From Streptomyces sp. NBC_01197 (GTDB taxonomy: Bacteria; Actinomycetota; Actinomycetes; Streptomycetales; Streptomycetaceae), in contig NZ_CP108569.1 of NCBI RefSeq assembly GCF_036010505.1, positions 6,106,001 through 6,170,000 on the forward strand: a stretch of 64,000 bases of DNA. The letters are read 5' to 3'. The notes under the pieces were generated by a model. The model did not search any database, was not told the DNA's origin, and saw only the letters and a list, made by a program, of their open reading frames with translations. Positions 4,626 through 45,113 of this stretch are shown in pieces (the stretch's first letter is position 1; the number at the start of each line of letters is the position of its first letter). The position numbers and the translations under genes were made by a program.

Positions 4626-5753
4626 GTGCGCCCGGCAACCGCGACGGCAACGGCCGTCACCACTCTGATCGGCGCCGGCGCGGCCGCGGCAGCGGTCGGC
4701 CGGCTCGCCGCCGACGCCGCGCTCAGGGCTCCGCACGGCCGGGCCCTGCCCGCCGAGCCCCGGCTCTCCGTACACGCCACGGCCCCCGGCCGGGTCACCC
4801 TCACCCGGTGCCTGGCCTCGCTGCGCCCCGGTGTGTACGGGCTGGAGGGCCCGGGGGTCCACGCGGTCGTCGGACCGGTGATCGACGGCGGCTCCGAGAC
4901 CGCCGACACCGTCGTGCGCCGTCTCGACCGGGTCACCTACGGCACGCTCGCCCCCGGCACCAAGGTCCGGCTCACTCCGCAGGTGTACGTGGGCGACCCG
5001 CGCTCCGCGCTCGGCATCGACCACGCCGACGTGGACATCCCCGGTGAACTCGGCGCCTCTCCGGCCTGGTTCGTGCCCGGCCCACGCTCCACCTGGGTGA
5101 TCACGGTGCACGGTCTGGGCACCGGCAGGGAGCACCCCATGAACGTCCTTGGTTTCCTGCACCGCCAGCAGTTCGCGGTCCTCGACATCTCCTACCGGGG
5201 CGACACCGGCGCCCCCGCGAACCCGGACGGCCTGGGACACCTCGGCGCGTCCGAGTGGCGCGACCTGGACGCGGCCATCCGCTACGCCGTCCGCTACGGC
5301 GCGGAGCGCGTCGTCCTGCACGGCTGGTCCACCGGCGCCGCCATGGCCCTGCACGCCGCGGTGGGTTCGGGGATGCGCGAACGCATCAGCGGCCTGATCC
5401 TCGACTCCCCGGTCCTCGACTGGGAGGCCACCCTCGGCGCGCTGGCCGCCGCCCGGGGCACACCGGCCTTCCTGCTGCCGCTCGCGGTGCGGGCGGCCCA
5501 GGGGCGGACCGGCACCAACGGCGACCGGCTGCGCGCCGCCGCCGACCCGCGGGCGCTGAAGGTGCCCACGCTGGTCGTCCACGGCCCCGGCGACCGGGTG
5601 GCTCCCTGGCAGCGCTCCGTCGAACTCGCCGCGGGCGACCCGTCGTTGGTGGCGATGCGGACCGTCACGGATGCCCCGCACGGCGCCATGTGGAACGCGG
5701 ATCCCGCCGCCTACGAAGAGTCCATGCGGCGCTTCCTGACCCCGCTGATGTAG
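4626..5753 (+). CDS. Alpha/beta hydrolase with N-terminal membrane anchor
   Basis: A 375-residue protein from a GTG at 4626. A hydrophobic Ala/Gly-rich stretch at residues 8-30 suggests a membrane anchor or signal. The C-terminal half is an alpha/beta hydrolase: oxyanion region VHGLG (161-165), nucleophile elbow G-W-S-T-G (Ser235), catalytic Asp in VHGPGDRVAP and catalytic His in DAPHGAMW. The N-terminal 150 residues show no domain I know. Substrate is unknown; esterase or peptidase (S9-like) activity is possible. It follows the aldolase by about 100 bases on the same strand. Confidence 0.85.
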   Translation: MRPATATATAVTTLIGAGAAAAAVGRLAADAALRAPHGRALPAEPRLSVHATAPGRVTLTRCLASLRPGVYGLEGPGVHAVVGPVIDGGSETADTVVRRLDRVTYGTLAPGTKVRLTPQVYVGDPRSALGIDHADVDIPGELGASPAWFVPGPRSTWVITVHGLGTGREHPMNVLGFLHRQQFAVLDISYRGDTGAPANPDGLGHLGASEWRDLDAAIRYAVRYGAERVVLHGWSTGAAMALHAAVGSGMRERISGLILDSPVLDWEATLGALAAARGTPAFLLPLAVRAAQGRTGTNGDRLRAAADPRALKVPTLVVHGPGDRVAPWQRSVELAAGDPSLVAMRTVTDAPHGAMWNADPAAYEESMRRFLTPLM

Positions 5754-5852
5754 CGGTCCGGGCCCGCCGGCCGGCGTCCGTGCGCCCTGCGTCAACCTGT
5801 AGCGAGGGGTTCCGTTTGGGCTTTCGGGCCGTCAGAGGCAAGACTGCTCCCC

Positions 5853-7217
5853 GTGACGTCCCGTAACCCGCGCGACTCCAGACTCCGCCTCGTCCGCCCC
5901 CGACCTCTGGTCACGGCCCGCCGTGTCGTGAGCAACAGGCCCATCCGCCCAGCCCCGCGCCCGCCCGCCGGTACCCCGGCCCCGGCGGAGCTGGCCCGTC
6001 AGGCCAGGACGGTGCTCGCCGACGCCGTCCGGATCGCCCGCTGGGCCGGGGACGCCCGGCCGGTGCAGGGCGGGGCGCTCACCGCCCCGGCCGCCGAACA
6101 CGCCGTACGTACCCTCGCGTTGACCCCGGAGGCGGTCCGCGCGGGCTGGGACCGCGCCCGGCTCGCCGGACTCGTCGAACTGCACGGGGACATCGCCCGC
6201 CCCGGGTGGCGGCTGCGCGCCTGGGACGGTGACGACAGCGCGGTGCTGCGCGGCTGGGTCGCCCTCTTCGACGCCTGGTCGATCGTCCACCCGGCCGCCG
6301 CCGATGTTCCCGCCACCGCGGTGGCCGAGGTCGTCGAGGCCGTACCGCAGGTGCTCTCGCTGCTTCAGCTCTCCGCGGGTCCTGTGACCGTGCCGGCCCT
6401 GCTCGACCTGCTCCAGCAGCGCGTCGTCGAACTGCACGAGGAGCGCTGCGAGGTCCCCTGCGGCCCGCGTCCGCAGCCTGAGCCCCCGATGGCGGCCGGG
6501 ACGCTCGCCGCGCTGCTCGACTGGGCGCTGCGGGGCCTGGCGGCGGTCGGCGCCCTGACGCTGGCGCCCGGCCAGGCGACGCTGACACCGCTCGGCAACT
6601 GGGCGGTCTGGGTCAAGCTGGAGCAGATCTGCGTCGCGGCGCAGAGCCCGGCGGGCAACATCGAGCAGCGCGCCGACGACATGCTGCGCGGCTGTGCGGG
6701 GCTGACACCCGGCCCGGCGCGGGCCGAGTACCGCGCCTGGCTGGCCGCCCGGACCGTGGGCAGCGCGGTCACCGAGCTGCTCGGGGTGGCCCGCGGCGAG
6801 GACGCGCTGCTGCGCGGTCTCGCCTTCGAGGCACTGAGGGTGGTCGGCGCCCCCGCGGAAGCGGCGGTACGGGGCGCGGCCGGTGAGACCTCGCTCCGTC
6901 CGTACGCGGTGCTCTGGCTGGCCGAGTACGAGGGCGCCGACCCGGAGGACGCCCACGACGCCCTCACCCGTGAGGAGGCGACCTGGCTCTGGGTGGACAC
7001 CGCCGCGGCCGTCGCCGACCACGGAGAGAGCACCCTGCTGGTGCGCCATCTGGAATCAGCGGTGCAGGGCACCGTGCCCGCGCTGCTCGAAGAGGTGCGG
7101 GCGGTGGGGCACCCGCGCACCGTGCAGGTGCTGGTGGCGCTGGCTGCCGCGCACCCCGATCCGGCCCTGGCCAAGGCGGTGCGCCGGGCCGCGTTCCAGG
7201 TGCACACCGGGGGCTGA
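5853..7217 (+). CDS. Conserved hypothetical protein
   Basis: A 454-residue, Leu/Ala-rich soluble protein starting at a GTG (5853). The N-terminal 45 residues are Arg/Pro-rich and probably disordered. The rest is predicted helical with HEAT-like spacing near the C-terminus (LLVRHLESAVQGTVPALLEEV and onwards). No signal peptide, catalytic motif or familiar domain is visible. I do not recognise a function. Its frame is consistent across the whole length with strong third-position GC, so it is a real gene, and it converges on the VOC gene with a shared hairpin between them. Confidence 0.75.
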   Translation: MTSRNPRDSRLRLVRPRPLVTARRVVSNRPIRPAPRPPAGTPAPAELARQARTVLADAVRIARWAGDARPVQGGALTAPAAEHAVRTLALTPEAVRAGWDRARLAGLVELHGDIARPGWRLRAWDGDDSAVLRGWVALFDAWSIVHPAAADVPATAVAEVVEAVPQVLSLLQLSAGPVTVPALLDLLQQRVVELHEERCEVPCGPRPQPEPPMAAGTLAALLDWALRGLAAVGALTLAPGQATLTPLGNWAVWVKLEQICVAAQSPAGNIEQRADDMLRGCAGLTPGPARAEYRAWLAARTVGSAVTELLGVARGEDALLRGLAFEALRVVGAPAEAAVRGAAGETSLRPYAVLWLAEYEGADPEDAHDALTREEATWLWVDTAAAVADHGESTLLVRHLESAVQGTVPALLEEVRAVGHPRTVQVLVALAAAHPDPALAKAVRRAAFQVHTGG

Positions 7218-33520: not shown

Positions 33521-34288
33521 ATGAGCGGAATTCTCGACGGCAAGCGCATCCTCATCACGGGTGTGCTGATGGAGTCCTCCATCGCCTTCCACGCCGCCAA
33601 GGTGGCCCAGGAGCAGGGCGCCGAGGTCATCCTGACCGCCTTCCCGCGGCCCACCCTCACCGAGCGCATCGCCAAGAAGCTGCCCAAGCCCGCCAAGGTC
33701 ATCGAGCTGGATGTCACCAGCACCGAGCACCTCGACCGGCTCGCGGGCCTGGTCCGCGACGAGCTCGGCTCGCTCGACGGGGTCGTGCACTCCATCGGCT
33801 TCGCGCCGCAGGACGCGCTCGGCGGCAACTTCCTCAACACCCCGTTCGAGTCGGTCGCCACGGCCATGCACGTCTCGGCCTTCTCGCTGAAGTCGCTGGC
33901 CATGGCCTGTCTGCCGCTGATGAGCGAGGGCGGCTCGGTCGTCGGCCTCACCTTCGACGCCCAGTACGCCTGGCCGCAGTACGACTGGATGGGCCCGGCC
34001 AAGGCCGCGCTGGAGGCGACATCCCGCTACCTCGCCCGTGACCTGGGCCAGCAGGACATCCGCTGCAACCTGATCTCCGCCGGCCCCATCGGCTCGATGG
34101 CCGCGAAGTCCATCCCGGGCTTCGGGGAACTGGCGGACGTCTGGAACACCCGCTCCCCGCTCGCCTGGGACATGGCCGACCCCGAGCCGGCCGGCCGCGG
34201 CATTGTCGCCCTGCTCTCGGACTTCTTCCCGAAGACGACCGGCGAGATCATCCACGTCGACGGCGGCGTGCACATGATGGGCGCCTGA
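33521..34288 (+). CDS. fabI: NADH-dependent enoyl-ACP reductase FabI/InhA
   Basis: 255 residues from ATG 33521. Typical of InhA-type FabI: ILITGVLMESSIAFHAAKVA-QEQGA with the altered glycine loop, HSIGFAPQDALGGNF, active-site Y-x6-K in YDWMGPAKAALEATSRYLA, and LISAGPIGSMAAKSIPGF. It performs the last reduction of fatty acid elongation and is the triclosan/isoniazid target class. It forms an operon with fabG and converges on the UbiD gene, 14 bases away. Confidence 0.95.
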   Translation: MSGILDGKRILITGVLMESSIAFHAAKVAQEQGAEVILTAFPRPTLTERIAKKLPKPAKVIELDVTSTEHLDRLAGLVRDELGSLDGVVHSIGFAPQDALGGNFLNTPFESVATAMHVSAFSLKSLAMACLPLMSEGGSVVGLTFDAQYAWPQYDWMGPAKAALEATSRYLARDLGQQDIRCNLISAGPIGSMAAKSIPGFGELADVWNTRSPLAWDMADPEPAGRGIVALLSDFFPKTTGEIIHVDGGVHMMGA

Positions 34289-34301: not shown

Positions 34302-35699
34302 TCAGGGGGCCGCGCGACCGTCGAGCAGACGGCGCGCGGCCTCCGCGCGTCCGGGGGCGATCTCGATCCGTACCCCGTCGAAGTCCGGGCCGCGCGTCGC
34401 GTCCAGGGCCATCCGGGACGTCGTGCCGTCCGCCGTGGACGACGGGTCTAGGGGGCTGCCGGGCAGACCGCCGACCTGGAAGACGTCCCGGTGCGGCTGG
34501 AGATGGGTGGCCATCGCCCACAGCACCTGCGAGTCCTGCGTGATGTCGACGTCCTGGTCGACCGCGACGACCGTCTTGAGGTACGGGTCCCAGCCGAGCA
34601 GCCCCAGCATGATCTGCCGGGCCTGGCCGGGACGGCTGGGGCGCATCGCCACATACGCGTGGAAGTGCGTGCCCGAGGTCGGATAGTGCAGCGCCGTCAC
34701 CTCGGGGAAGCGCTCCATCAGTTTCTGCGCCATCTCCGACTCGCGCGGCACCCGCGCCAGGTTGAGGTGCTCGGCCGTGCTGCCGCCCACCACGTCCAGC
34801 AGCAGCGCGTCCCGGCGCCGCAGGACCGTCTCGACGGTCAGCACGTTGTGGGTCGAGCGGTCCGACGAGTATCCGGAGAACTCACCGAAGGGCCCCTCGT
34901 CGGCACGGCGGTCCGGATCGATGAACCCCTCAAGGACCGTCTCGGCGCTCGCCGGAACACGTATCCCGTACTTCGGGGTGCGCACCACGTCCAGGGGTGC
35001 CCCGAACAGGCCGCCCGCCACGCACCGTTCGTCGGTGTCCGCGCCCACCCGGGCGGACGCCGCCAGCATGAACAGCGGGTGCGAGCCGACGACCATGGCC
35101 ACCGGGAGCCGTTCGCCGTGCTCCTGCGCCAGCCGCAGCAGCTGCCACAGATGGCCGCGCGAGTGGAGGCTGGTGGCCAGTTCGCCCGGGTCGTGCACCA
35201 TCGCGCGGTGGTAGCTGAGATTGCCCGAGCGGCCCTCGGCGTACGGGGGTGCCTCCACCGCGATGATGCCGTTCGTGATGTACGGGCCCCGGTCCGAGGC
35301 GAAGTGCCGGATCATCGGGAGGACGCCGAGGTCCGGTTCCGCCACCACGTCGAGCACCGGGCCCTCCCGCACCACCCGGGGCTCGCAGCGGCGGGCCGAC
35401 GCCGCCTGGTACGCGCGGTGCAGCCCGGCCGTCCCGGTGCCGAGCAGGCGGGCGATACGGCGGCGCGATGCGAACACATTGGTGACCAGGGGGGTACCGA
35501 GCCCCGCGACGTTCCGGCAGACCACCAGCTCGTCCCGGCCGCGCGCCGCCAGCTCCAGGACGAGCGCGGCCACGTCCTCGCCTTCGATCCGGTCGTCGAC
35601 GGTGAGCACGTCGTCGGGGTGGTCGGCCGTGTACCGGGCGAGGAAGTCCCGCAGGTCCTGGGATGCCGGGGGCGCCGCCGACAACGGCTCAGTGGTCAC
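34302..35699 (-). CDS. UbiD-family decarboxylase (prenylated-FMN dependent)
   Basis: 465 residues. The family motif EGPFGEFSGY (268-277) holds the catalytic glutamates. N143 (ITNGIIA) and H164-R165 (NLSYHRAM) fit the metal and prFMN-phosphate binding set. UbiD enzymes reversibly decarboxylate aromatic, heteroaromatic or alpha,beta-unsaturated acids, using prFMN made by UbiX. No ubiX is in this window, so the cofactor must come from elsewhere. It is the last gene of the seven-gene catabolic block and overlaps the racemase-like gene by 11 bases, so the two are translated together. Substrate unknown. Confidence 0.92.
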   Translation of the reverse strand: MTTEPLSAAPPASQDLRDFLARYTADHPDDVLTVDDRIEGEDVAALVLELAARGRDELVVCRNVAGLGTPLVTNVFASRRRIARLLGTGTAGLHRAYQAASARRCEPRVVREGPVLDVVAEPDLGVLPMIRHFASDRGPYITNGIIAVEAPPYAEGRSGNLSYHRAMVHDPGELATSLHSRGHLWQLLRLAQEHGERLPVAMVVGSHPLFMLAASARVGADTDERCVAGGLFGAPLDVVRTPKYGIRVPASAETVLEGFIDPDRRADEGPFGEFSGYSSDRSTHNVLTVETVLRRRDALLLDVVGGSTAEHLNLARVPRESEMAQKLMERFPEVTALHYPTSGTHFHAYVAMRPSRPGQARQIMLGLLGWDPYLKTVVAVDQDVDITQDSQVLWAMATHLQPHRDVFQVGGLPGSPLDPSSTADGTTSRMALDATRGPDFDGVRIEIAPGRAEAARRLLDGRAAP

Positions 35700-36429
35700 A
35701 GCAGATCCCCGCGTGCTGCTCGACCGAGAACAGCTCGCCCCACTCGGGAGCGCCGACCGTCAGGCCCAGCAGATCGAGCCCGGTCCTGATCGCCACCCGG
35801 GCACCGTCGTACACCGGCTTGCCCAGCTCCCGTTCCAGCAGCGCGGCCACGGGCGCGACCGGCAGCTCCGTACCCGTCACCACCAGGCACTCGGCGTCCG
35901 GAGAGTCGGCCCCCGCCAGCAGTCTGCGTACCCGCGACACCGCCAGCCCTGCGGCCTCCCGCGCCGTGGGAAGCCCGAGCGCGGTCACCGAGACCACCCG
36001 GAATCCGGCCGCCAGATACGTGTCGGCGAGCCGCCCCGCGGCCTGTTCGGAGCCCGGTGACACCAGCGCCAGCGAGGCCAGCCCCCGGCGGGCGAGCAGA
36101 TCGAGCTGGCCCAGCGTGACGGTCGACGCGGGGACGCCTGCCACCTCCTCGATCCGGCGCGCCACCGCCCGCCCGTGCGCCGCGCCGTGCAGATCGCTCG
36201 AACTGCCGCTCCAGACCACGGCGTCGGCGCCCGCGTCGGCCAGCAGCGCGGCCGAGCGGGTGAGTTCAGCGGACTGCGAGGGCGCGATCGCAGGACCGTA
36301 CAGCACGTCGGGCAGGGCGGTGCGGGCGACCGGATGGGCGGCCTCGATGGAGACGGAGCGGCAGATCTGGCCCGACCAGCGCTCGACGCCGATGGAGGGG
36401 GAGGGGACGAGATGACCGATGCGCCGCAT
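35689..36429 (-). CDS. Asp/Glu racemase superfamily protein lacking both catalytic cysteines
   Basis: 246 residues with the two-domain pattern of maleate cis-trans isomerase, arylmalonate decarboxylase and hydantoin racemase: MRRIGHLVPSPSIGVERWSG, VWSGSSSDLHG, TLGQLDLLARRGLASLALVS, then ECLVVTGTELPVAPVAALLE-RELGKPVYDG. In maleate isomerases the two active cysteines lie in blocks like C-T-S and S-C-T-N-L; here these read W-S-G-S-S and T-G-T-E-L, with no Cys at either place. The protein may use another mechanism or bind without racemising. It overlaps ubiD and follows the amidohydrolase by 134 bases. Confidence 0.82.
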   Translation of the reverse strand: MRRIGHLVPSPSIGVERWSGQICRSVSIEAAHPVARTALPDVLYGPAIAPSQSAELTRSAALLADAGADAVVWSGSSSDLHGAAHGRAVARRIEEVAGVPASTVTLGQLDLLARRGLASLALVSPGSEQAAGRLADTYLAAGFRVVSVTALGLPTAREAAGLAVSRVRRLLAGADSPDAECLVVTGTELPVAPVAALLERELGKPVYDGARVAIRTGLDLLGLTVGAPEWGELFSVEQHAGICCDH

Positions 36430-36563
36430 GGCGGCACCTGCTTCCGTACCGGGGGCGCCGGGACACCGTGCCCGTGGTGGATGTGCGTCCGTGGTTGACG
36501 GGCGGAGGAGGGCCGGCCCGCTCCCGCGAGGAGGGGGCCGGCCCGTGGGTGGGGCCGCTGCCC

Positions 36564-37499
36564 TCAGACGCGCGACGAACCGGCCGCGTCCAACGACGCG
36601 TAGGTGTCCGTGAGGCGCAGCTGCGCCTCCTCCTGGTCGCGCGGCGGGGGAGTGGGCTTCAGACCCAGCAGCTTCGCCACGTTGTTGCCGAGATACCCCT
36701 CCAGATGCTCCTCGGAGAGGTTCATGCCCTGCGGCGGCGGGCCGCAGAGGACCTCCAGCTCACGGGCCCACATGCCCGGTTCGTTGGGCGGCGAGTCCGT
36801 ACCGAAGACCAGCTGGTGCTTCTCCATCTGCTGGGCGAACTCCACGATCCGCGACTGGAGCAGCCACCCCGACTCGCCGTACACATTGGGCGAGTCGAGG
36901 ATCATGTAGAGCGCCTCGAAGCAGTAGACGCCGCCGGTCTGCACACCGAAGTGCCCGAGGATGAAGTTGACGTTCGGGAACTCGCGGATGATCGGGTAGA
37001 ACTGCGTCGGGATCGAGTACGGCCCGTCGCCGGTGTGGATCAGGACCAGGACACCCAGCTCGTCACAGACCCGCAGCACCGGGCGGAGCCAGTCGAGCGC
37101 CCGGTCGGGCCGGTAGGCATGCATGTTGGCATGCAGCTTGAGCATCTTGTAGCCGTACTCCTTGACGTGGAACTCCAGCTCCTTGGCGCCGTTCTCCGGC
37201 CCGAAGCGCGGGTTGTACATGAAGTTCCCGATGAAGCGGTCGGGGTACGTCGTCACCAGCTCGGTGATGTACGCCATGTAGTCGCGGATGCCCTCGCGGC
37301 CGCCCCGCATCCCGTCCTGCCAGACGCTGTTGCCGGGCGGGGGCATGATGCAGCCGTAGTCGATCCGGCGGGGTTTGCCGTTGATCAGGTACGGGCCGTC
37401 CATCATGGCCAGGGTCCGCTCGCCGGTGAACGGCTCGCCGTCGTGCCGCCACGCCTGGTCCACGACGTTCGTGGGATGCATATGAGTGTCGATGATCAA
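36564..37499 (-). CDS. Metal-dependent amidohydrolase, ACMSD/decarboxylase type
   Basis: 311 residues from a TTG at 37499 that has GGAAGGAA upstream; no ATG or GTG fits the domain start MIIDTHMHP. Metal ligands: H6-x-H8, H123 (KLHAN), H155 (IHTGDGP), H183 (LGHFG) and D235 (GTDSPP). This is the amidohydrolase-2 group that includes aminocarboxymuconate-semialdehyde, gamma-resorcylate and 3,6-dihydroxypicolinate decarboxylases, so it may be a non-oxidative decarboxylase or a lactone/amide hydrolase. It lies 82 bases after the molybdenum hydroxylase gene and overlaps nothing. Confidence 0.87.
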   Translation of the reverse strand: MIIDTHMHPTNVVDQAWRHDGEPFTGERTLAMMDGPYLINGKPRRIDYGCIMPPPGNSVWQDGMRGGREGIRDYMAYITELVTTYPDRFIGNFMYNPRFGPENGAKELEFHVKEYGYKMLKLHANMHAYRPDRALDWLRPVLRVCDELGVLVLIHTGDGPYSIPTQFYPIIREFPNVNFILGHFGVQTGGVYCFEALYMILDSPNVYGESGWLLQSRIVEFAQQMEKHQLVFGTDSPPNEPGMWARELEVLCGPPPQGMNLSEEHLEGYLGNNVAKLLGLKPTPPPRDQEEAQLRLTDTYASLDAAGSSRV

Positions 37500-37581
37500 G
37501 GTGCTGTTCCTTCCCTGCTGGTTCTGGTGGTACGTACGCGGTGCGTGCAGAACCGTCGGGGGACCCGGGGGCGGGCCCGCA

Positions 37582-39870
37582 TCACCTCCCTTCGCTGTCG
37601 GTGAGGCCGCTGTCGGCGGGGCCACTGAGGGCGGGGCCGCTGTCGGTGGGGCCGCTGTGGATCAGGTCGCCGGGGCGCACCGGCACCCTGGTCAGGGCGA
37701 GGCCGGTAGCGTCGCGCAACGCGTTGGCGATGGCCGGGGTCGACGACAGGGTCGGTGGCTCGCCCACCCCGTTCAGCCCGTACGGCGAGTCGGGGTGGGG
37801 CAGTTCGAGCAGGTCGATGGGGACCGACGGCATGTCCGCGATCGTCGGGATCAGATAGTCGGTGAAGGACGGATTACGCACCGTGCCGTCCTGGATGTGG
37901 AGTTCCTCCATGAGCGCGAGCCCGAGGCCCTGGGCGCTGCCGCCCTCGATCTGCCCCTCGACGGCGAGGGGGTTCATCGCCTTGCCGACATCCTGGCTGG
38001 TGGCCAGCTCGACCACCTTCACCAGTCCGAGTTCGGTGTCGACGTCCACGACCGCGCGGTGGGCGGCGAACGCGAAGGCGATGTGGGCGTCGCCCTGGCC
38101 GCGTTCGGGGTCGATGGGAAACGTGCGGCGGTGGCGGTACTGGTACTCGGCCTCGACGGGCCCGTCCGCGAGCAGCGCCTCCAACGGCCCGTCCCCGCGC
38201 GCGGTCAGCTCCTCCCGTACGGCCTTGCAGGCGCCCTGCACCGCGCCGCCGCTCATCCAGCTGATCCGGGACGCCGACGACGAACCCGCGTCGCCCACCA
38301 GGGTGTCGGCGGGCAGAACCACCACCCGCTCGACGCCCAGCTCGGTCCTGGCGATCTGCGCCTGAACGGTCACGATGCCCTGGCCGCACTCGGCGGCGGC
38401 GGTGTGGATCTCGGCCACCGGATCCCCGTTGACCAGGGCGAGCCGGACCCGGGCCACCGAGCGGTCGTCGACCCCGCCGGAGAAGCCGATGGCCTTGACC
38501 CCGATGGCATAGCCGACCCCGCGCCTGACGCCCTCACCGTGTGTGGTGTTGTTCAGCCCGCCCGGCCGGGCGAACGCGCCCTCACCGGCGGGCGGCAGCG
38601 GACGGGCGCGCAGCCGCTCCAGGAGTTCGGCGGCAGGCGCGGGACCGTCCACCGCCTGCCCGGTCGGCAGCACCGACCCCGTCGTCATGGCATTGCGGAT
38701 ACGCAACTCCACCGGGTCCATGGTGAGTTCACGTGCCAGCCGGTCGAGGTTGGACTCCACGCCGTAACACGACTGCACCGCCCCGAAGCCGCGCATCGCC
38801 CCGCACGGAGGGTTGTTGGTGTAGACGCAGTAGCCGTCGATCTCGGCGTGCGGAACGTCGTAGGCGCCCGCCGCGAAGTACGAGCCGTTGGCTATGACCA
38901 CCTGGGATGTGGAGGTGTAGGCACCGCCGTCGAAGAGCAGCCGCGCCCTGACGTACACGAGCTTCCCGTCGCGCGTCGCGCCGTGCTCGAAGCGCATCCG
39001 GGCCGGGTGGCGGTGCACATGCCCGTAGAACGACTCCTCGCGGTTGTAACTCATCTTCACCGGACGGCCGGTGTGCAGTGCGAGCATCGCCGCGTGGATC
39101 TGCACCGAGACGTCCTCGCGTCCGCCGAAGGCCCCGCCGACGCCGGAGAGCGTCAGCCGCACCTTCTCCGGCGGCAGCCCGAGCGCCGCGCACATCTGGT
39201 GCTGGTCGTCGTGCAGCCACTGGGTCGATACATAGACATCGACACCGCCGTCGTCCGCGGGTATCGCCAGGCCCGACTCGGGGCCCAGGAACGCCTGGTC
39301 CTGCATACCGACCTGGTACGTCCCCGAGACCACCACATCGGCGAGCCGCCGGGCCCCGGCCATGTCACCGTGCCGTATCCGGACATGCCGTACGACATTG
39401 CCGGACTTCCCGTCGGCCCGCCGCTCGTGCACCAGCGGGCCCCCGCCGCCGAGCGCCCGCTCGGGGTCGGTCAGTGGTTCGAGCACCTCGTAACCGACGT
39501 CGATCAGCCGCAGCGCGCGGCGGGCGGTCTCCGGGTGGTCGGCCGCGACCAGCGCCACCGGCTCACCCTGGTAGCGCACCCGGTCGGCGGCCAGCACCGG
39601 CTGGTCGGCGACCTTCATCCCGTACAGCGGCTGTCCCGGCACGTCCTCGTGCGTGAGCACCGCGACCACGCCCGGCAGCCGGAGAGCGGCGGTGGTGTCG
39701 AGCCGAACGATCCGCGCGCAGGGGTGCGGGCTGCGCAAGGTCGCGCCCCACACCATCGCGTCGTCGTGCAGATCGGACGCGTACGCGAAGGCCCCCTGGA
39801 CCTTCAGCCGGCCGTCGGGCCGCAGAACGCTCTCGCCGACTCCCTGCCGGATGCCGGTGGCGGTGCTCAC
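37582..39870 (-). CDS. Molybdenum hydroxylase (xanthine dehydrogenase family) large subunit
   Basis: 762 residues. The start (GVGESVLRPDGRLKVQGAFA-YASDL) and NNPPCGAMRGFGAVQSCYGV resemble Bacillus PucD/XdhD. The Mo-cofactor region includes GGAFGGREDVSVQIHA and the catalytic Glu704 in NGVGEPP. Such subunits hydroxylate purines or other N-heterocycles beside ring nitrogen. A [2Fe-2S] and an FAD subunit are normally needed, and neither is encoded next to it or anywhere in the window. The C-terminus ends in imperfect repeats (SGPTDSGPALSGPADSG) from a GC-rich tandem repeat. It follows the gntR gene by 134 bases. Confidence 0.92.
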   Translation of the reverse strand: MSTATGIRQGVGESVLRPDGRLKVQGAFAYASDLHDDAMVWGATLRSPHPCARIVRLDTTAALRLPGVVAVLTHEDVPGQPLYGMKVADQPVLAADRVRYQGEPVALVAADHPETARRALRLIDVGYEVLEPLTDPERALGGGGPLVHERRADGKSGNVVRHVRIRHGDMAGARRLADVVVSGTYQVGMQDQAFLGPESGLAIPADDGGVDVYVSTQWLHDDQHQMCAALGLPPEKVRLTLSGVGGAFGGREDVSVQIHAAMLALHTGRPVKMSYNREESFYGHVHRHPARMRFEHGATRDGKLVYVRARLLFDGGAYTSTSQVVIANGSYFAAGAYDVPHAEIDGYCVYTNNPPCGAMRGFGAVQSCYGVESNLDRLARELTMDPVELRIRNAMTTGSVLPTGQAVDGPAPAAELLERLRARPLPPAGEGAFARPGGLNNTTHGEGVRRGVGYAIGVKAIGFSGGVDDRSVARVRLALVNGDPVAEIHTAAAECGQGIVTVQAQIARTELGVERVVVLPADTLVGDAGSSSASRISWMSGGAVQGACKAVREELTARGDGPLEALLADGPVEAEYQYRHRRTFPIDPERGQGDAHIAFAFAAHRAVVDVDTELGLVKVVELATSQDVGKAMNPLAVEGQIEGGSAQGLGLALMEELHIQDGTVRNPSFTDYLIPTIADMPSVPIDLLELPHPDSPYGLNGVGEPPTLSSTPAIANALRDATGLALTRVPVRPGDLIHSGPTDSGPALSGPADSGLTDSEGR

Positions 39871-40004
39871 TGACCATCACTTCCCTTCTGCTGTAGGGGA
39901 CGCGGTGCGGGGCCGCCGCACGGGAGCCGCGGCGTGGACGACGGGAGCCGGGATTTCCGGCCCGGCCGACGGGCCCCGGGCGGGCGCGACGTCGCGGATA
40001 CGGC

Positions 40005-40730
40005 CTACGGCCCGACCGGGTGTACGGGAGAGGGCCCGCCCTCCGTACGGTCGGGGCCCGGCGCCACCGCCTGCGACAGCCGGATCCGCAGCCGCCTGAT
40101 GTGGTCGCGGGCCGCGAGCTCGGCCGCGTCCGGGTCGCCCGCCGTCATCGCCTCGAAGATCCGGCGGTGCTCCTCGACGGCGAGCCGGGGGGCCTGCGGG
40201 CTGCGCCACAGTGCGTGCAGCGCGAGGTGGGCCTTGCCCTGCACGGTGTCCAGGGCCGAGGTGAGATGGGCGTTGTCCGCGACCTCGCGGATGAGCCGGT
40301 GGTACGCCATGTCCATCTCGGTGTGCGCCTGTTCGTCGTCGCCCGCCGCCACGACCTGCTCATGCCGCTCCAGGAGGTCGCGCAGTTCGGAGACCCTGGT
40401 GGCGTCGAGCCGCTCGGTGGCGAGCCGGGCGGCCAGCCCCTCCATCACCTCGCGGACCAGGTACAGCCGGCGTACGTCCTCGACGTCGACCGTGGCGACC
40501 ACGGCGCCGCGGTGGGCGATATGGGTGGCCAGGCCGTCGTGGATCAGACGCTGCACGGCCTCGCGGACCGGGCTGCGGCTGATGCCCAGCTGAGTGGCGA
40601 GCGCGGGCACGGAGAGCGCGTCGCCGGGGCGCAGCCGGTTGGCGAGCACCGCCCCCTTGAGCTCCTCGTAGGCCCGGTCGGCAAGCAGGCTTCCGGCCGC
40701 GACCGGGTTCACTGCTCTCTCCGTCGACAT
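40005..40730 (-). CDS. GntR-family (FCD/FadR-type) transcriptional regulator of the catabolic block
   Basis: 241 residues from ATG 40730 with AGGGAG seven bases upstream. Winged helix: ADRAYEELKGAVLANRLRPG-DALSVPALATQLGISRSPVR-EAVQRLIHDGL. The C-terminal all-helical FCD domain has metal/ligand residues in EMDMAYHRLIREVADN and EEHRRIFEAMTAGD. It sits inside the block between the permease and the hydroxylase genes, so it very likely controls both sides. The candidate operator TTGCATGTAA occurs at 40832 and 43832. Ligand is presumably the imported compound or an intermediate. Confidence 0.9.
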   Translation of the reverse strand: MSTERAVNPVAAGSLLADRAYEELKGAVLANRLRPGDALSVPALATQLGISRSPVREAVQRLIHDGLATHIAHRGAVVATVDVEDVRRLYLVREVMEGLAARLATERLDATRVSELRDLLERHEQVVAAGDDEQAHTEMDMAYHRLIREVADNAHLTSALDTVQGKAHLALHALWRSPQAPRLAVEEHRRIFEAMTAGDPDAAELAARDHIRRLRIRLSQAVAPGPDRTEGGPSPVHPVGP

Positions 40731-40777
40731 GCCCCAACTCCCTCTGTGACGCTCAGCTGCTGCGTTGTTCATGACGC

Positions 40778-42289
40778 TTACGGCGCCTCGTCCGATGTGC
40801 TGGGTATCCTGCTCTCCAGCTGTTCTTCATGTTGCATGTAATCTTCGGGCGGGTCAATGGACCGCGCAGCCCTCTTCCGGCGGCCCGGCAGCCTGAGATG
40901 GTGGAAGAACAGGTTGAGCAGTACAGCTGTCAGCGTGCCGAGGATGATGCCGCTCTCGAAGAGTGCATGCAGTTGCCGGCCCGGCATCTGATCAGCGAAC
41001 TGGGGGAACGCGGTCGGCAGGAAGCCGACGCCCACGCTCGCCGCGACCAGGATCGTGTTGCGCTGGTCGCCGAGGTCGGCCTGGACCAGGATCTGCACCC
41101 CGACCACGGCGATCGTGGAGAACAGCACGATCGTCGCGCCGCCCAGCACGGAGGCCGGCATCGCGGACACCACCGCGCCCACCTTCGGTACCGCGCCCAG
41201 CACCATCATGATCACGCCGGACGCCGCGACGATCCACCGGCTCTTCACCCGGGTCAGTCCGATCAGCCCGATGTTCTGCGAATAGACCGTGCTGGGAAAG
41301 GAGTTGAGGAGACCGGCGACCATCGTCGCGAGGCCGTCCGCGCGCAGCGCCCGGGTCACCTGCCTGCCGTCCACCTCACGGCCGACGATCCTGCCCACCG
41401 CGAAGAACTGCCCGATGGACTCCACCGCGATGATGATCATCACCAGGACGACGGAGAGCACCGCGGTCGCCTCGAAACGCGGCGCCCCGTAGTGCAGCGG
41501 GGCCGTGACGCCCAGCCAGGCGGAGCCGCCGATCCCCGAGAAGTCGGTCTCGCCCGCGAGCGCGGCCACCACCGTGCCTGCGACCAGGCCGAGCAGCACC
41601 GCCACCGTGGCCAGGAAGCCCCGGGAGAACTTGTGCAGCAACAGGATCACCAGCAGGGTGGCCCCCGCGAGGCCCAGATGGACCGGTGAGCCGAAGGTGT
41701 GCTGCGACGGGTCCCCGCCGCCCACCTGCCGGGCCGCCACCGCGAGCAGGGTGATCCCGACGATGGTCACGATGGTGCCGGTGACCAGCGGCGGGAAGAA
41801 CCTGACCAGCCTGCTGAACACCGGCGCGATCACGAAGAGCGCGAGTCCGGCGGCGATCACCGCCCCGAAGACGGTCGGCAGTCCGGCCTTCGCCCCGCCC
41901 GCGGCCAGCCCCACCGACACGAGCGAGGGCACCGCCGTCGTCGACGTGCCCTGCACCACCGGCAGCCGGATGCCGATCCCGGGCAGCCCCACGGATTGCA
42001 GCAGGGTGGCGAGACCGCAGGTCAGCAGCGAGGCGTTGACCAGCATCCCGATGTCCTCGGCCGGCATCCCGATGCCCTGGGCGACCAGGAGCGGCATGAC
42101 GACCGCACCGGCGTAGAAGGCCAGCACGTGCTGGAGCCCGTAGACGGCCAGCCGCCAGAACGACGGCACCGCGTCGACCGGATCCGGCTCCGGCGGCTCG
42201 GCACCGCCCGCGTCCACCGGGACCGGGACCGGGTCCGGACCGGGCTCCCGGTGCCGGTCCGTACTGCCCTGAACTGCCTTGCGCGACAT
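40778..42289 (-). CDS. NCS2-family nucleobase/urate-type permease
   Basis: 503 residues from ATG 42289 with GGAGGGAG upstream. About 14 transmembrane helices. NCS2 marks: HVLAFYAGAVVMPLLVAQGI in TM1, LPVVQGTSTTAVPSLVSVG in TM3, and the signature Q-N-I-G-L-I-G-L-T-R in YSQNIGLIGLTRVKSRWIVA. The TM8 acidic position lies in VESIGQFFAVGRIVG. Members import uracil, xanthine, urate or related bases with H+. In this cluster it is the likely uptake system for the catabolic substrate. The N-terminal 40 residues are a polar extension. Confidence 0.92.
   Translation of the reverse strand: MSRKAVQGSTDRHREPGPDPVPVPVDAGGAEPPEPDPVDAVPSFWRLAVYGLQHVLAFYAGAVVMPLLVAQGIGMPAEDIGMLVNASLLTCGLATLLQSVGLPGIGIRLPVVQGTSTTAVPSLVSVGLAAGGAKAGLPTVFGAVIAAGLALFVIAPVFSRLVRFFPPLVTGTIVTIVGITLLAVAARQVGGGDPSQHTFGSPVHLGLAGATLLVILLLHKFSRGFLATVAVLLGLVAGTVVAALAGETDFSGIGGSAWLGVTAPLHYGAPRFEATAVLSVVLVMIIIAVESIGQFFAVGRIVGREVDGRQVTRALRADGLATMVAGLLNSFPSTVYSQNIGLIGLTRVKSRWIVAASGVIMMVLGAVPKVGAVVSAMPASVLGGATIVLFSTIAVVGVQILVQADLGDQRNTILVAASVGVGFLPTAFPQFADQMPGRQLHALFESGIILGTLTAVLLNLFFHHLRLPGRRKRAARSIDPPEDYMQHEEQLESRIPSTSDEAP
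40832..40841. promoter_or_regulatory. Candidate GntR operator upstream of the gntR gene
   Basis: TTGCATGTAA, a near-palindrome (TT-R-CATG-Y-AA), lies 102 bases before the gntR start, within the last codons of the permease gene. An identical 10-mer lies at 43832-43841 before the first gene of the block. FCD-type GntR proteins often bind sites of the form TTGnATnCAA. Function is inferred. Confidence 0.5.
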
Positions 42290-42392
42290 GTGCGTTCTCC
42301 CTCCACCCGCCGACGGCGGGGGTTGTTCACTGCGCACGTACGGGGGCCGCGGACGGGCAGCCGACAGGGAAATCGGTCGGTCGGGGGTGTGG

Positions 42393-43784
42393 TCAGTGGT
42401 TCCAGGGGCGGGTCAGCTCACCGAACCCGGCCCGCGTCACGAGCTGTCCGGACCGCTCCTGCGCCTCGGCCAGCAGCGCGTCCTCGTCCACCAGCAGGCA
42501 GCGGCCGTCCTCGAAGACGACCCGCCCGTCGACGACGGTCAGCTCCACGTCGGAGCCGCGCGACGCGTACACGAGAGCGGAGACGGTGCGGTGCAGCGGC
42601 ACCTGGTGCGGGCGGTCCAGGGCGACCACGGCCAGATCCGCTGGGGCGCCGGCGGTCAGTACGCCGGCCCCCGTACCCGCATAGCGGCCGCCCTCCCGGG
42701 TGGCCAGCTCCAGCGCCTCCTCGCAGCGCGCGGCGGCCGGATCGAGGGTGTGCTGGCGCTGACCGAAGAGCGTCTGCTTCATCACTTCGAACATGTCCTG
42801 GCGGTGCCCGGCGCTGGGGCCGTCGGTGCCGAGCGCCACCACGGCGCCCGCCTCCCGCAGTTCGCGCAGCGGCATCACACCCGAGGCCAGATAGGCGTTG
42901 GACACGGGGTTGTGGGCGACACCGGCCCGCCGCTCGCCGATCCGGCGGATCTCGGACCCGTCCAGCCACACGGCGTGCGCGAGGGTGGTCCGCTCGTCCA
43001 GCAGCCCCTCGGCGGCCAGCCACTCGACCGGCCTGATGCCGTACGCGTCCAGATAGCTCTCCGGGTCCTTCGCCCCCTCGCTGCAGTGCGTGTGCCAGCG
43101 CGTCCCGAACTCGGCGGCCAGCGCCGCCGCCCCCCTGACCAGGTCCTGGTCCACATAGCTGAGGTTGAGGGGGGCCGGCCAGATCTCCACGGTGGAGCCG
43201 GGCGGCCGCCGCCGCATGCACTCCCGGGTGAGCTCCAGCTCCTCGGCGACGGAGTACCGGAAGAGTGCGGGAGGCAGCCCCCGCGCGAGCGCCACCGGGG
43301 TCCGGTGCCCGATCATGCCGCGGGCCACCGCGCCGCGCAGCCCCGCCGATTCGACGGCCCCCGCCACCGCGAGCACGGTCTCCGGGTCGGTGGGCGCGTA
43401 GTGGTTGTCGATGACGGTGGTGATGCCCGAGCGCAGCGCCTCCACTGCGCCGAGAGTGGCGGCGGCCCTGGCGTCGTCGGGGGTCACGGCTATGGAGTAC
43501 GGCCACATGAACTCGCACAGCCAGGGCCAGATGGAGAGTCCCTCGCCCAGTCCGCGGGCGAGGGACTGGAACAGGTGGCTGTGCCCGTCGGTGAAGCCGG
43601 GGACGACCGCCCGGCCCCGGCAGTCGACCGTACGGGCCGCCTGCCACGCGGTATCGGTCTCCGCCGCCGGGCCCACCGCCGCGATGCGGTTCCCGGTGAT
43701 GGCGACCGAGCCCGGTTCGTACACGGACCGCCGGTCGTCCACGGTCACCACCCGCCCGCCCGACAGCAGAAGATCGCACTCCAT
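42393..43784 (-). CDS. Amidohydrolase-superfamily deaminase (TrzN/AtzA/guanine deaminase-like)
   Basis: 463 residues. Metal and catalytic residues of subtype III amidohydrolases are intact: H68-x-H70 (GHSHLF), H231-x-H233 with E236 (HTHCSEG), H270 (LAHAVW) and D321 (GTDGPSAGHRQD). Such enzymes deaminate or dechlorinate ring systems (guanine, 8-oxoguanine, triazines, S-adenosylhomocysteine). It is the first gene of the block, upstream of the permease by 103 bases. Its promoter region 43785-43860 has two TGCATGT motifs, one in the operator shared with the gntR site. Confidence 0.9.
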   Translation of the reverse strand: MECDLLLSGGRVVTVDDRRSVYEPGSVAITGNRIAAVGPAAETDTAWQAARTVDCRGRAVVPGFTDGHSHLFQSLARGLGEGLSIWPWLCEFMWPYSIAVTPDDARAAATLGAVEALRSGITTVIDNHYAPTDPETVLAVAGAVESAGLRGAVARGMIGHRTPVALARGLPPALFRYSVAEELELTRECMRRRPPGSTVEIWPAPLNLSYVDQDLVRGAAALAAEFGTRWHTHCSEGAKDPESYLDAYGIRPVEWLAAEGLLDERTTLAHAVWLDGSEIRRIGERRAGVAHNPVSNAYLASGVMPLRELREAGAVVALGTDGPSAGHRQDMFEVMKQTLFGQRQHTLDPAAARCEEALELATREGGRYAGTGAGVLTAGAPADLAVVALDRPHQVPLHRTVSALVYASRGSDVELTVVDGRVVFEDGRCLLVDEDALLAEAQERSGQLVTRAGFGELTRPWNH

Positions 43785-44332: not shown

Positions 44333-45010
44333 TCAGGCAGAAGTCCCCAGGCAGTTGGTGAACGCGTGGCTCGCCGCCTCGGCGGCCGCCAGGTCCCCGT
44401 CGCCGTTCCGGATCGCGTCGATCAGCCGGCTGTGGTCCATATACCCCTCCGGCCGCAGCTCGCGCCCCACGTCGTCCCGGAGCCAGTCGCGGAGCAGGTC
44501 GCCCAGGTCGGCGTAGAGCTCGGTCAGTACGTCGTTGTGCGAGGCGTTCACGATCGCCAGATGCAGGGTCGCGTCGGCGGCCACGAACGCCTCCGCTTCA
44601 CCCGCCTCCCAGGTCCGCTCCCGCTCGGCGAGCAGTGCCGCCAGCTGCTTCATGTCCCGCTCGGTGCGGCGTTCGGCGGCCAGCCGGGCGGCCGACGACT
44701 CCAGGGTCGAGCGCAGTTCCGCGACGTGCCGCGGGTCAGCCGCGGCGAACCGGCGGTGCATCACCCCGGCCAGCTCACTGGTGGCGACCACATAGGTGCC
44801 GGAGCCCTGGCGGATGTCCAGCAGCCCGTTGTGCGCGAGGGCGCGCACCGCCTCCCGGACGGTGTTGCGGGCCACTCCCAGCTGCTCGACCAGTTCGGGC
44901 TCGGTCGGGATGCGGGCGCCGACCGGCCACTCGCCCGAGGTGATCTGGTTCCGCAGTTCGGTGATCACCTGGTCGGCGAGTGCGGAACGCCGGGGAGAGT
45001 TCAGCGCCAT
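44333..45010 (-). CDS. GntR-family (FCD) regulator divergent from MFS transporter
   Basis: 225 residues from ATG 45010 with GAGGAG upstream. Winged helix: ALADQVITELRNQITSGEWP-VGARIPTEPELVEQLGVARN-TVREAVRALAHNGLLDIRQG. FCD domain: ADATLHLAIVNASHNDVLTE and YMDHSRLIDAIRNGD with conserved ligand histidines. It is divergent from the CynX/NimT-type transporter gene across 109 bases, the standard layout for a local repressor. A 16-bp inverted repeat in that gap is a likely operator. Confidence 0.9.
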   Translation of the reverse strand: MALNSPRRSALADQVITELRNQITSGEWPVGARIPTEPELVEQLGVARNTVREAVRALAHNGLLDIRQGSGTYVVATSELAGVMHRRFAAADPRHVAELRSTLESSAARLAAERRTERDMKQLAALLAERERTWEAGEAEAFVAADATLHLAIVNASHNDVLTELYADLGDLLRDWLRDDVGRELRPEGYMDHSRLIDAIRNGDGDLAAAEAASHAFTNCLGTSA

Positions 45011-45079
45011 GGTGCTCCTCGTTCGGGGGTTGCGTCGTTCGCGGTCGCGTCGTTCGGGGTCGCGGGGCGGGAAAACCGG

Positions 45080-45113
45080 GATTGGACAACCAATCATCCC
45101 ATGATTCTATGAT
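45080..45113 (+). promoter_or_regulatory. Operator and -10 of the MFS transporter gene (predicted leaderless)
   Basis: GATTGG-ACAA-CCAATC (45080-45095) is a perfect inverted repeat. It overlaps the -35 region of a promoter whose -10 is TATGAT (45108-45113). The transporter ATG at 45120 is only 6 bases after the -10, and no Shine-Dalgarno precedes it, so the mRNA should be leaderless. The placement suits repression by the divergent GntR protein. Confidence 0.6.

Follow-up and report, generated by a model that had tools for sequence, protein, structure and literature searches.

A block of seven genes at positions 34302-43784 of the window analysed here, a stretch of 64,000 nucleotides from Streptomyces sp. 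NBC_01197 (RefSeq assembly GCF_036010505.1, contig NZ_CP108569.1, positions 6,106,001 to 6,170,000), forms a bounded genomic island, and its gene set recurs in Actinomycetes, Acidimicrobiia, Alpha- and Betaproteobacteria. All seven genes are encoded on the minus strand, in the order AH1 (a deaminase-type amidohydrolase), NCS2 permease, GntR regulator, XdhL (a molybdenum hydroxylase large subunit), AH2a (an amidohydrolase-2 protein), RAC (an Asp/Glu-racemase-like protein), and UbiD (Table 1). A first-pass annotation had named these families on the same strand and read them as one catabolic block for an N-heteroaromatic compound, with steps of import, deamination, and hydroxylation; profile matches agree with the family names, and the comparisons presented here support the reading as one block. 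The compound itself had been left unnamed, which need not wholly apply, as the permease and the molybdenum subunit, together with some neighboring genes, point to purine or pteridine rings. We regard catabolism of a purine or pteridine ring by the island as likely, while the narrower proposal that its substrate is an oxidised pterin (pterin, isoxanthopterin, xanthopterin, or a lumazine) is put forward at somewhat below even chances; we infer it as the most specific reading that employs all of the conserved genes.

The intergenic distances within the block amount to 55, 5, 134, 82, 134, and -11 bp in the gene order given above, and the UbiD gene ends 13 bp from the stop codon of fabI. A close fabI was present in 40 of 41 sampled Streptomyces genomes, and the best 30 fabI loci were compared with 1.5 kb on each side. 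Among these, UbiD is located directly behind fabI in the window strain and in one other genome (G023), and in 25 of the 28 cluster-less loci, i.e., those of genomes lacking a close AH2a, a second GntR-type gene (GntR2) lies within approximately 0.8 kb of fabI. The seven genes are inserted between these two backbone genes, and the coordinates proposed in the first-pass annotation coincide with the edges of the island. The upstream GntR2 and CynX/NimT-type major facilitator superfamily genes were considered as members of the block and rejected, because GntR2 resides near fabI in the cluster-less loci, often with the transporter gene next to it. AH2a is rare and patchily distributed, since a close copy was found in 3 of 199 Streptomyces genomes and in 2 of 396 genomes of a phylum-wide sample, the source genome being included in both counts, and horizontal acquisition of the island is proposed as the best explanation. 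No direct repeat of at least 11 bases common to both island edges was found, nor an inverted repeat of 12 between them; one inverted repeat of 11 was detected. ARAGORN called a tRNA-Gly(ccc) at 44821-44914, on the opposite strand inside GntR2, which is probably spurious because it spans 94 bases and lies within a conserved coding gene.

Recurrence of the gene set was assessed in 83 loci: of 316 confirmed stretches the best 80 were used, to which three plasmid loci (L031-L033), chosen out of 91 records, were added. The short loci L002 and L003 were omitted, L160-L170 stand outside the tallies, and the 71 loci of at least 20.5 kb were counted as full-length. The homologue comparisons covered 120 of 275, 868, and 221 matches, and among the homologues listed neither a name such as "pterin deaminase" nor an Alcaligenes entry was found. 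Among the 120 matches listed, AH2a relatives are 64-93% identical and belong to Actinomycetes, Caldilineales, Rhizobiales, and Burkholderiales; relatives also occur in Acidimicrobiia and Rhodobacterales. In a set of 72,556 plasmid records, 91 carry a relative, and 63 of these belong to Sinorhizobium. A search for gene co-occurrence had been suggested as a check on the block, and the genes do travel together: the full-length AH2a loci contain UbiD in 70 of 71 cases (including two distant copies, in L076 and L087, with 39-42% identity), XdhL in 63, NCS2 in 59, a CobW GTPase in 55, UbiX in 52, and AH1 in 47. None of these six genes was found in 20 control stretches (20 kb, with weak AH2 homologues, all from Streptomyces). 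The association is above chance, because the genes recur jointly in unrelated bacteria and not in the 20 Streptomyces control loci. Distances of AH2a correlate with those of six other genes (r 0.59-0.89, with 0 of 500 permutations as high), a test that shared ancestry alone could pass. Annotated examples include clusters of Caballeronia NK8 (L032), Ponticoccus (L033), and Ensifer adhaerens (L161), and a 141-kb Paracoccus plasmid (L164) carries the cluster together with XdhC and an NTP-transferase-domain gene.

Within this gene set, AH2a and UbiD constitute a constant core, while the deaminase, hydroxylase, and importer vary. XdhL falls into three sequence groups among the 13 loci listed. The actinobacterial group shows 62-95% identity to the best query (68-95% to the window protein in the six loci of this group among the 13), the alphaproteobacterial group 35-37%, and the Burkholderiales group 27%. 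AH1 is of at least two types, the window copy resembling AtzA and 8-oxoguanine deaminase and the S. meliloti copy resembling cytosine deaminase, and the importers across carriers include further NCS2 copies, a BMP-family ABC system, and an ABC system with an NMT1/THI5-like binding protein. Varied front ends combined with a constant AH2a-UbiD pair are as expected if different amino-heterocycles reach one intermediate, and the pair is an uncharacterised heteroaromatic module even if the substrate proposed here is wrong.

The translation start of AH2a is probably the TTG at 37499 rather than the start at 37625, because relatives begin with MIID there. The protein matches Amidohydro_2 (124 bits); phmmer returned no match for it in the PDB, and a profile was used instead for comparison. 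AH2a has the cog2159 fold and the H-x-H...H...H...D motif. Residues H6, H8, K121, H123, H155, H183, and D235 are kept in all 84 aligned rows. The positions of K121 and H123 are occupied by Q/N in 5-carboxyvanillate decarboxylase and by N/N in LigJ, although these alignments are weak, and overall the site looks more like that of a ring hydrolase than that of a decarboxylase. The two decarboxylation-type steps assumed in the first-pass annotation are thus not supported, and the Q/N pair of 5-carboxyvanillate decarboxylase speaks against a close functional match of AH2a with ACMSD-type decarboxylases. In Proteobacteria, a second amidohydrolase-2 copy (AH2b) is located just before AH2a (L031:13047-13973, L032:13081-14013, and L033:13052-13981), and L161-L165, which were not in the alignment, possess two amidohydrolase genes each, the first being of this second-copy type. 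The H-x-H motif of AH2b is changed to S-C-Y in 23 aligned copies, and the fold matches listed for AH2a include AibH1H2 (8ful); by analogy, AH2a and AH2b resemble a heteromer of an active and a degenerate subunit.

UbiD exceeds the cut-off of TIGR00148 (247 vs 245 bits), and R165, E268, and E273, which we take to be the catalytic Arg-Glu-Glu triad of the family, reach at least 95% conservation among 81 sequences. In the PDB it matches 6h6v best (185 bits) and also 7p9q AnInD (131 bits); the former is presumably HmfF, and both are presumably decarboxylases of five-ring heteroaromatics. A UbiX gene is encoded in the source genome outside the island (C1:299957-300502, 248 bits vs a cut-off of 108.9) and is a possible source of prenylated flavin mononucleotide (prFMN) for the island enzyme. 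A second UbiD-like gene (L137:8587-10014, by eye) adjoins this UbiX. In L051, a distant UbiD (32%) is present at 4949-6310, as well as a UbiD start that is cut by the contig end (11322-11954) and appears cluster-like by eye.

AH1 matches Amidohydro_1 (179 bits), and its nearest PDB entries are AtzA and 8-oxoguanine deaminase, AtzA (202 bits) scoring above 2paj (125 bits), presumably the isoxanthopterin deaminase. Its metal site, earlier described as intact, is so throughout an alignment that comprises 53 cluster copies besides the window protein and the second deaminase of the source genome: H68, H70, H233, and H270 are present in 55 of 55 sequences and D321 in 54, with one gap. The scores remain below the NCBIfam equivalog cut-offs of the 8-oxoguanine and 5'-deoxyadenosine deaminase models (259/532 and 277/522 bits). 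The NCS2 permease matches Xan_ur_permease (322 bits) and passes the TIGR03173 pbuX cut-off (478 vs 414 bits), while the GntR/FCD regulator also occurs in related clusters. XdhL contains MoCoBD, passes the TIGR03196 pucD cut-off (861 vs 784 bits), and shares 58-59% identity with its large-subunit counterpart in the source genome's own xanthine dehydrogenase (XDH) operon. None of the nine PF00941 matches of the genome, representing flavin adenine dinucleotide (FAD) subunits, falls in the block, and no iron-sulfur subunit is found among its seven genes. Next to the chromosomal XDH large subunit lie an FAD subunit gene as well as XdhC-like and permease-like genes, and XdhL may borrow the small subunits of this operon, since the island lacks them.

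On basis of these assignments, the following route is proposed. A pteridine would be imported by the NCS2 permease and lose its 2-amino group through AH1, after which XdhL, with the FAD and iron-sulfur subunits of the chromosomal XDH operon, would introduce hydroxyl groups at C6/C7 of the pyrazine ring, as far as 2,4,6,7-tetrahydroxypteridine. AH2a would then hydrolyse and reclose this ring to form xanthine-8-carboxylate, conceivably with hydrolytic opening of the N8-C7 amide followed by closure on C6 to an imidazole carboxylate, and UbiD, with prFMN from the UbiX encoded elsewhere, would decarboxylate the product to xanthine. Xanthine could finally enter the XDH and uricase reactions of the host or its salvage enzymes, and the GntR protein would control the block. 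The conversion of tetrahydroxypteridine to xanthine-8-carboxylate, reportedly studied by McNutt, is to our understanding the reaction of the orphan Enzyme Commission entry EC 5.5.1.3, tetrahydroxypteridine cycloisomerase, and we know of no gene for the pteridine ring contraction or the decarboxylation step, nor of a prFMN enzyme that acts on a purine. We tentatively propose, and with less assurance than the pterin reading as such, AH2a as a candidate gene for EC 5.5.1.3 and UbiD as a xanthine-8-carboxylate decarboxylase, which together would supply the genes so far missing for aerobic catabolism of pterins.

Individual steps have precedents in the literature. Part of PMC11121863 describes hydroxylation by XDH of pterin at C7 and of 7,8-dihydropterin at C6, as well as conversion of isoxanthopterin to isoxantholumazine by isoxanthopterin deaminase, and a section of PMC5270733 reports deamination of isoxanthopterin and pterin-6-carboxylate by amidohydrolases. 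Bacterial pterin deaminase is mentioned in a portion of PMC9513972 for Alcaligenes extracts, Agrobacterium Arad3529, and Variovorax, and a table in PMC5941619, the only paper retrieved that names both tetrahydroxypteridine and xanthine-8-carboxylate, lists the two with the same mass.

Several loci connect the cluster to purine and urate metabolism. In L076 it adjoins a canonical XdhB (1208 bits vs 850), an OHCU decarboxylase/HIU hydrolase, and the allantoinase PuuE, all above cut-offs, and by eye also a guanine-deaminase-like protein (best family TadA, below cut-off) and a PuuD-like protein with no family match. Canonical-type XDH or urate genes are present in 6 of the 71 full-length loci (L063, L069, L071, L075, L076, and L078), the family check having been performed for L076. 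In a survey of 70 of the 80 genomes (all except L051, L052, L061, L080, L082, L085, L086, L096, L097, and L106), OHCU decarboxylase was detected in every actinomycete carrier (40 of 40) and every proteobacterial one (21 of 21). The source genome contains an XDH operon at C1:1.26 Mb and uricase, HIUase, and OHCU genes at 1.14 Mb, and judged by its XDH operon and uricase genes the host appears able to use xanthine.

A number of observations weigh against the pterin route or loosen its support. Neighboring XDH or urate genes do not amount to six independent cases, because four of these loci are Nocardia, and the absence of such neighbors from all 20 controls is set against an expectation of fewer than two. 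The OHCU count gives weak support and mostly reflects taxonomy, because in the baseline, where 72 of 396 phylum genomes encode the enzyme, each of the 12 Streptomyces rows listed is positive as well. OHCU decarboxylase was found in 0 of 9 carriers that are metagenome-assembled genomes (MAGs; seven Acidimicrobiia/Acidimicrobiaceae and two 'bacterium', with completeness not stated), and urate is therefore not the common fate of the product; salvage of xanthine in these carriers would be one way out. AH2a occurs without UbiD in the L081 and L096 stretches compared. K121/H123 are no proof of hydrolysis, since KxH is also found in other PF04909 proteins of Streptomyces, and Opp- and Tau-type importers say little because their ABC genes are present in the control loci too. 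XdhL may be an ordinary XDH, because it passes the pucD cut-off. Known UbiD chemistry makes use of a C=C bond, whereas xanthine-8-carboxylate carries its carboxylate beside a C=N bond; an alternative substrate for UbiD could be lumazine-6-carboxylate.

This last option corresponds to a folate or pterin-6-carboxylate variant, in which lumazine-6-carboxylate, or this compound hydroxylated at C7, would be the substrate of UbiD, and AH2a would act afterwards. Decarboxylation at C6 would seem easier for UbiD, and part of PMC9513972 discusses lumazine-6-carboxylic acid as a candidate intermediate of folate breakdown. However, AH2a and UbiD occur together without deaminase and hydroxylase in the stretches compared of L077, L080, L082, L084-L086, and L097 (three of them being below 15 kb), which favors UbiD acting on the AH2a product and leaves the variant unlikely. 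A ring-opening purine route, known from clostridia, would employ every enzyme: XdhL would produce xanthine, AH2a would hydrolyse xanthine or a ureido-imidazole-carboxylate, UbiD would decarboxylate 4-amino-5-imidazolecarboxylate, and AH1 would deaminate 4-aminoimidazole. It accounts for the xanthine permease and pucD scores and for the nine MAG carriers without OHCU decarboxylase, but two AH2 hydrolases are needed where actinomycete clusters have one, the other carriers examined already possess urate degradation, and five loci have a canonical-type XDH close to the cluster, which makes this route improbable as well.

The five-ring substrates presumed for the UbiD matches 6h6v and 7p9q AnInD would agree with a 7-deazapurine, for instance a queuine-derived base or 7-carboxy-7-deazaguanine, as the compound degraded. 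In this reading UbiD would remove the pyrrole carboxylate, AH1 deaminate, XdhL hydroxylate, and AH2a open the ring. NCS2 and a purine-type deaminase fit such a substrate, yet it does not predict the nearby xanthine and urate genes, and we consider it quite unlikely. The same low probability is given to a carboxylate of a non-purine ring (pyrazine, pyridine, or pyrimidine), for which AH2a would act as a decarboxylase, in keeping with the first-pass annotation: the named fold neighbors of AH2a are mostly decarboxylases (ACMSD, gamma-resorcylate, isoorotate, and 5-carboxyvanillate), but the permease and molybdenum subunit are purine-type, the K121/H123 pair is unlike 5-carboxyvanillate decarboxylase, and fold alone does not reveal function.

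Breakdown of an oxidised pterin, the reading preferred here, assigns no catalytic step to RAC, because RAC was not found in 56 of the 71 full-length loci (a distant copy could escape the search). RAC scores 43 bits against Amdase (cut-off 26), 28.7 against Asp_Glu_race (below the cut-off of 31), and 44 bits against the NF052327 arylmalonate decarboxylase model, below its cut-off of 225. At the position that we take to be the racemase catalytic cysteine, the window protein and eight other aligned Streptomyces copies carry Gly, while copies from Burkholderiales and Pseudonocardia carry Cys. Its candidacy as an essential component was rejected in view of its detection in 15 full-length loci only, and together with the Gly substitution this leaves the role that the first-pass annotation had envisaged for it unsupported.

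Some carriers have additional genes near the cluster. Acidimicrobiial AH2a loci contain Rieske oxygenase and GCV_T genes (L081:11708-15500, by Pfam; L096:1676-5639, by eye) or an MtmB-family methyltransferase (L088:10891-17424), which perhaps serve demethylation of methylated substrates. Two Ensifer clusters contain, between the deaminase and LysR genes, a gene with an aldolase annotation (L161:4366-5154 and L165:5233-6033), which might trim a side chain. M81/MlrC-type metallopeptidase genes are found near two MAG clusters (L079:1941-3428, by Pfam; L090:4145-5608, by eye).

Table 1. Genes of the island and the backbone genes at its edges (window coordinates; aa, amino acids).
Feature	Coordinates	Strand	Description
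AH1	42393..43784	-	Amidohydrolase/deaminase, 463 aa, ATG start; proposed amino-ring deaminase
NCS2 permease	40778..42337	-	Xanthine-permease subfamily, 519 aa, GTG start
GntR/FCD regulator	40005..40772	-	255 aa, 5 bp after permease gene
XdhL	37582..39870	-	Molybdenum hydroxylase large subunit, 762 aa, GTG start, pucD type
AH2a	36564..37499	-	Amidohydrolase-2 protein, 311 aa; proposed ring-contracting hydrolase/cycloisomerase
RAC	35689..36429	-	Asp/Glu-racemase / arylmalonate-decarboxylase-like protein
UbiD	34302..35699	-	UbiD-family decarboxylase; R165, E268, E273; 11-bp overlap with RAC
fabI	33521..34288	+	Backbone gene, left island edge; outside the pathway
GntR2	44333..45097	-	Backbone regulator, right island edge; outside the pathway

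With this proposal, a recurring and mobile gene set of several bacterial classes obtains a concrete, testable pathway. If correct, it would supply candidate genes for orphan pteridine enzymes, link the turnover of pterins from folate debris and insect pigments to purine catabolism, and extend prFMN-dependent decarboxylation to purine or pteridine rings. Literature searches of an open-licence library on gene names and pterin terms gave no described pathway with this exact set, in line with the first-pass annotation.

Parts of the island are shared with known systems. The picolinate/nicotinate and hydroxymethylfurfural (HMF)/furoate routes combine a molybdenum hydroxylase with an ACMSD-like or UbiD protein, as does the island, but its seven genes lack a ring-opening dioxygenase, an amidase, and a maleate isomerase bearing the cysteine, and its permease is purine-type; an assignment to these routes was rejected because the partner genes differ. 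AH2a shares 12-20% identity with the PF04909 cog2159 enzymes (ACMSD, gamma-resorcylate and isoorotate decarboxylases, LigJ, and AibH1H2), from which its system is set apart by K121/H123 and, in Proteobacteria, by the AH2b copy without H-x-H. The island UbiD has the domains and the R-E-E residues of UbiD/UbiX prFMN decarboxylases, with 6h6v as nearest PDB entry, but differs in its partners (purine-type permease, deaminase, and AH2a) and in the absence of UbiX from the island. Canonical purine/urate operons contain homologues of the NCS2 permease, the amidohydrolase, and the XDH large subunit, while the island adds AH2a and UbiD, lacks uricase, and encodes the large molybdenum subunit only. Finally, the bacterial breakdown of pterin and isoxanthopterin to xanthine corresponds in its step types one to one with the route proposed here, i.e., a deaminase, an XDH-type hydroxylation, a ring contraction, and a decarboxylation.

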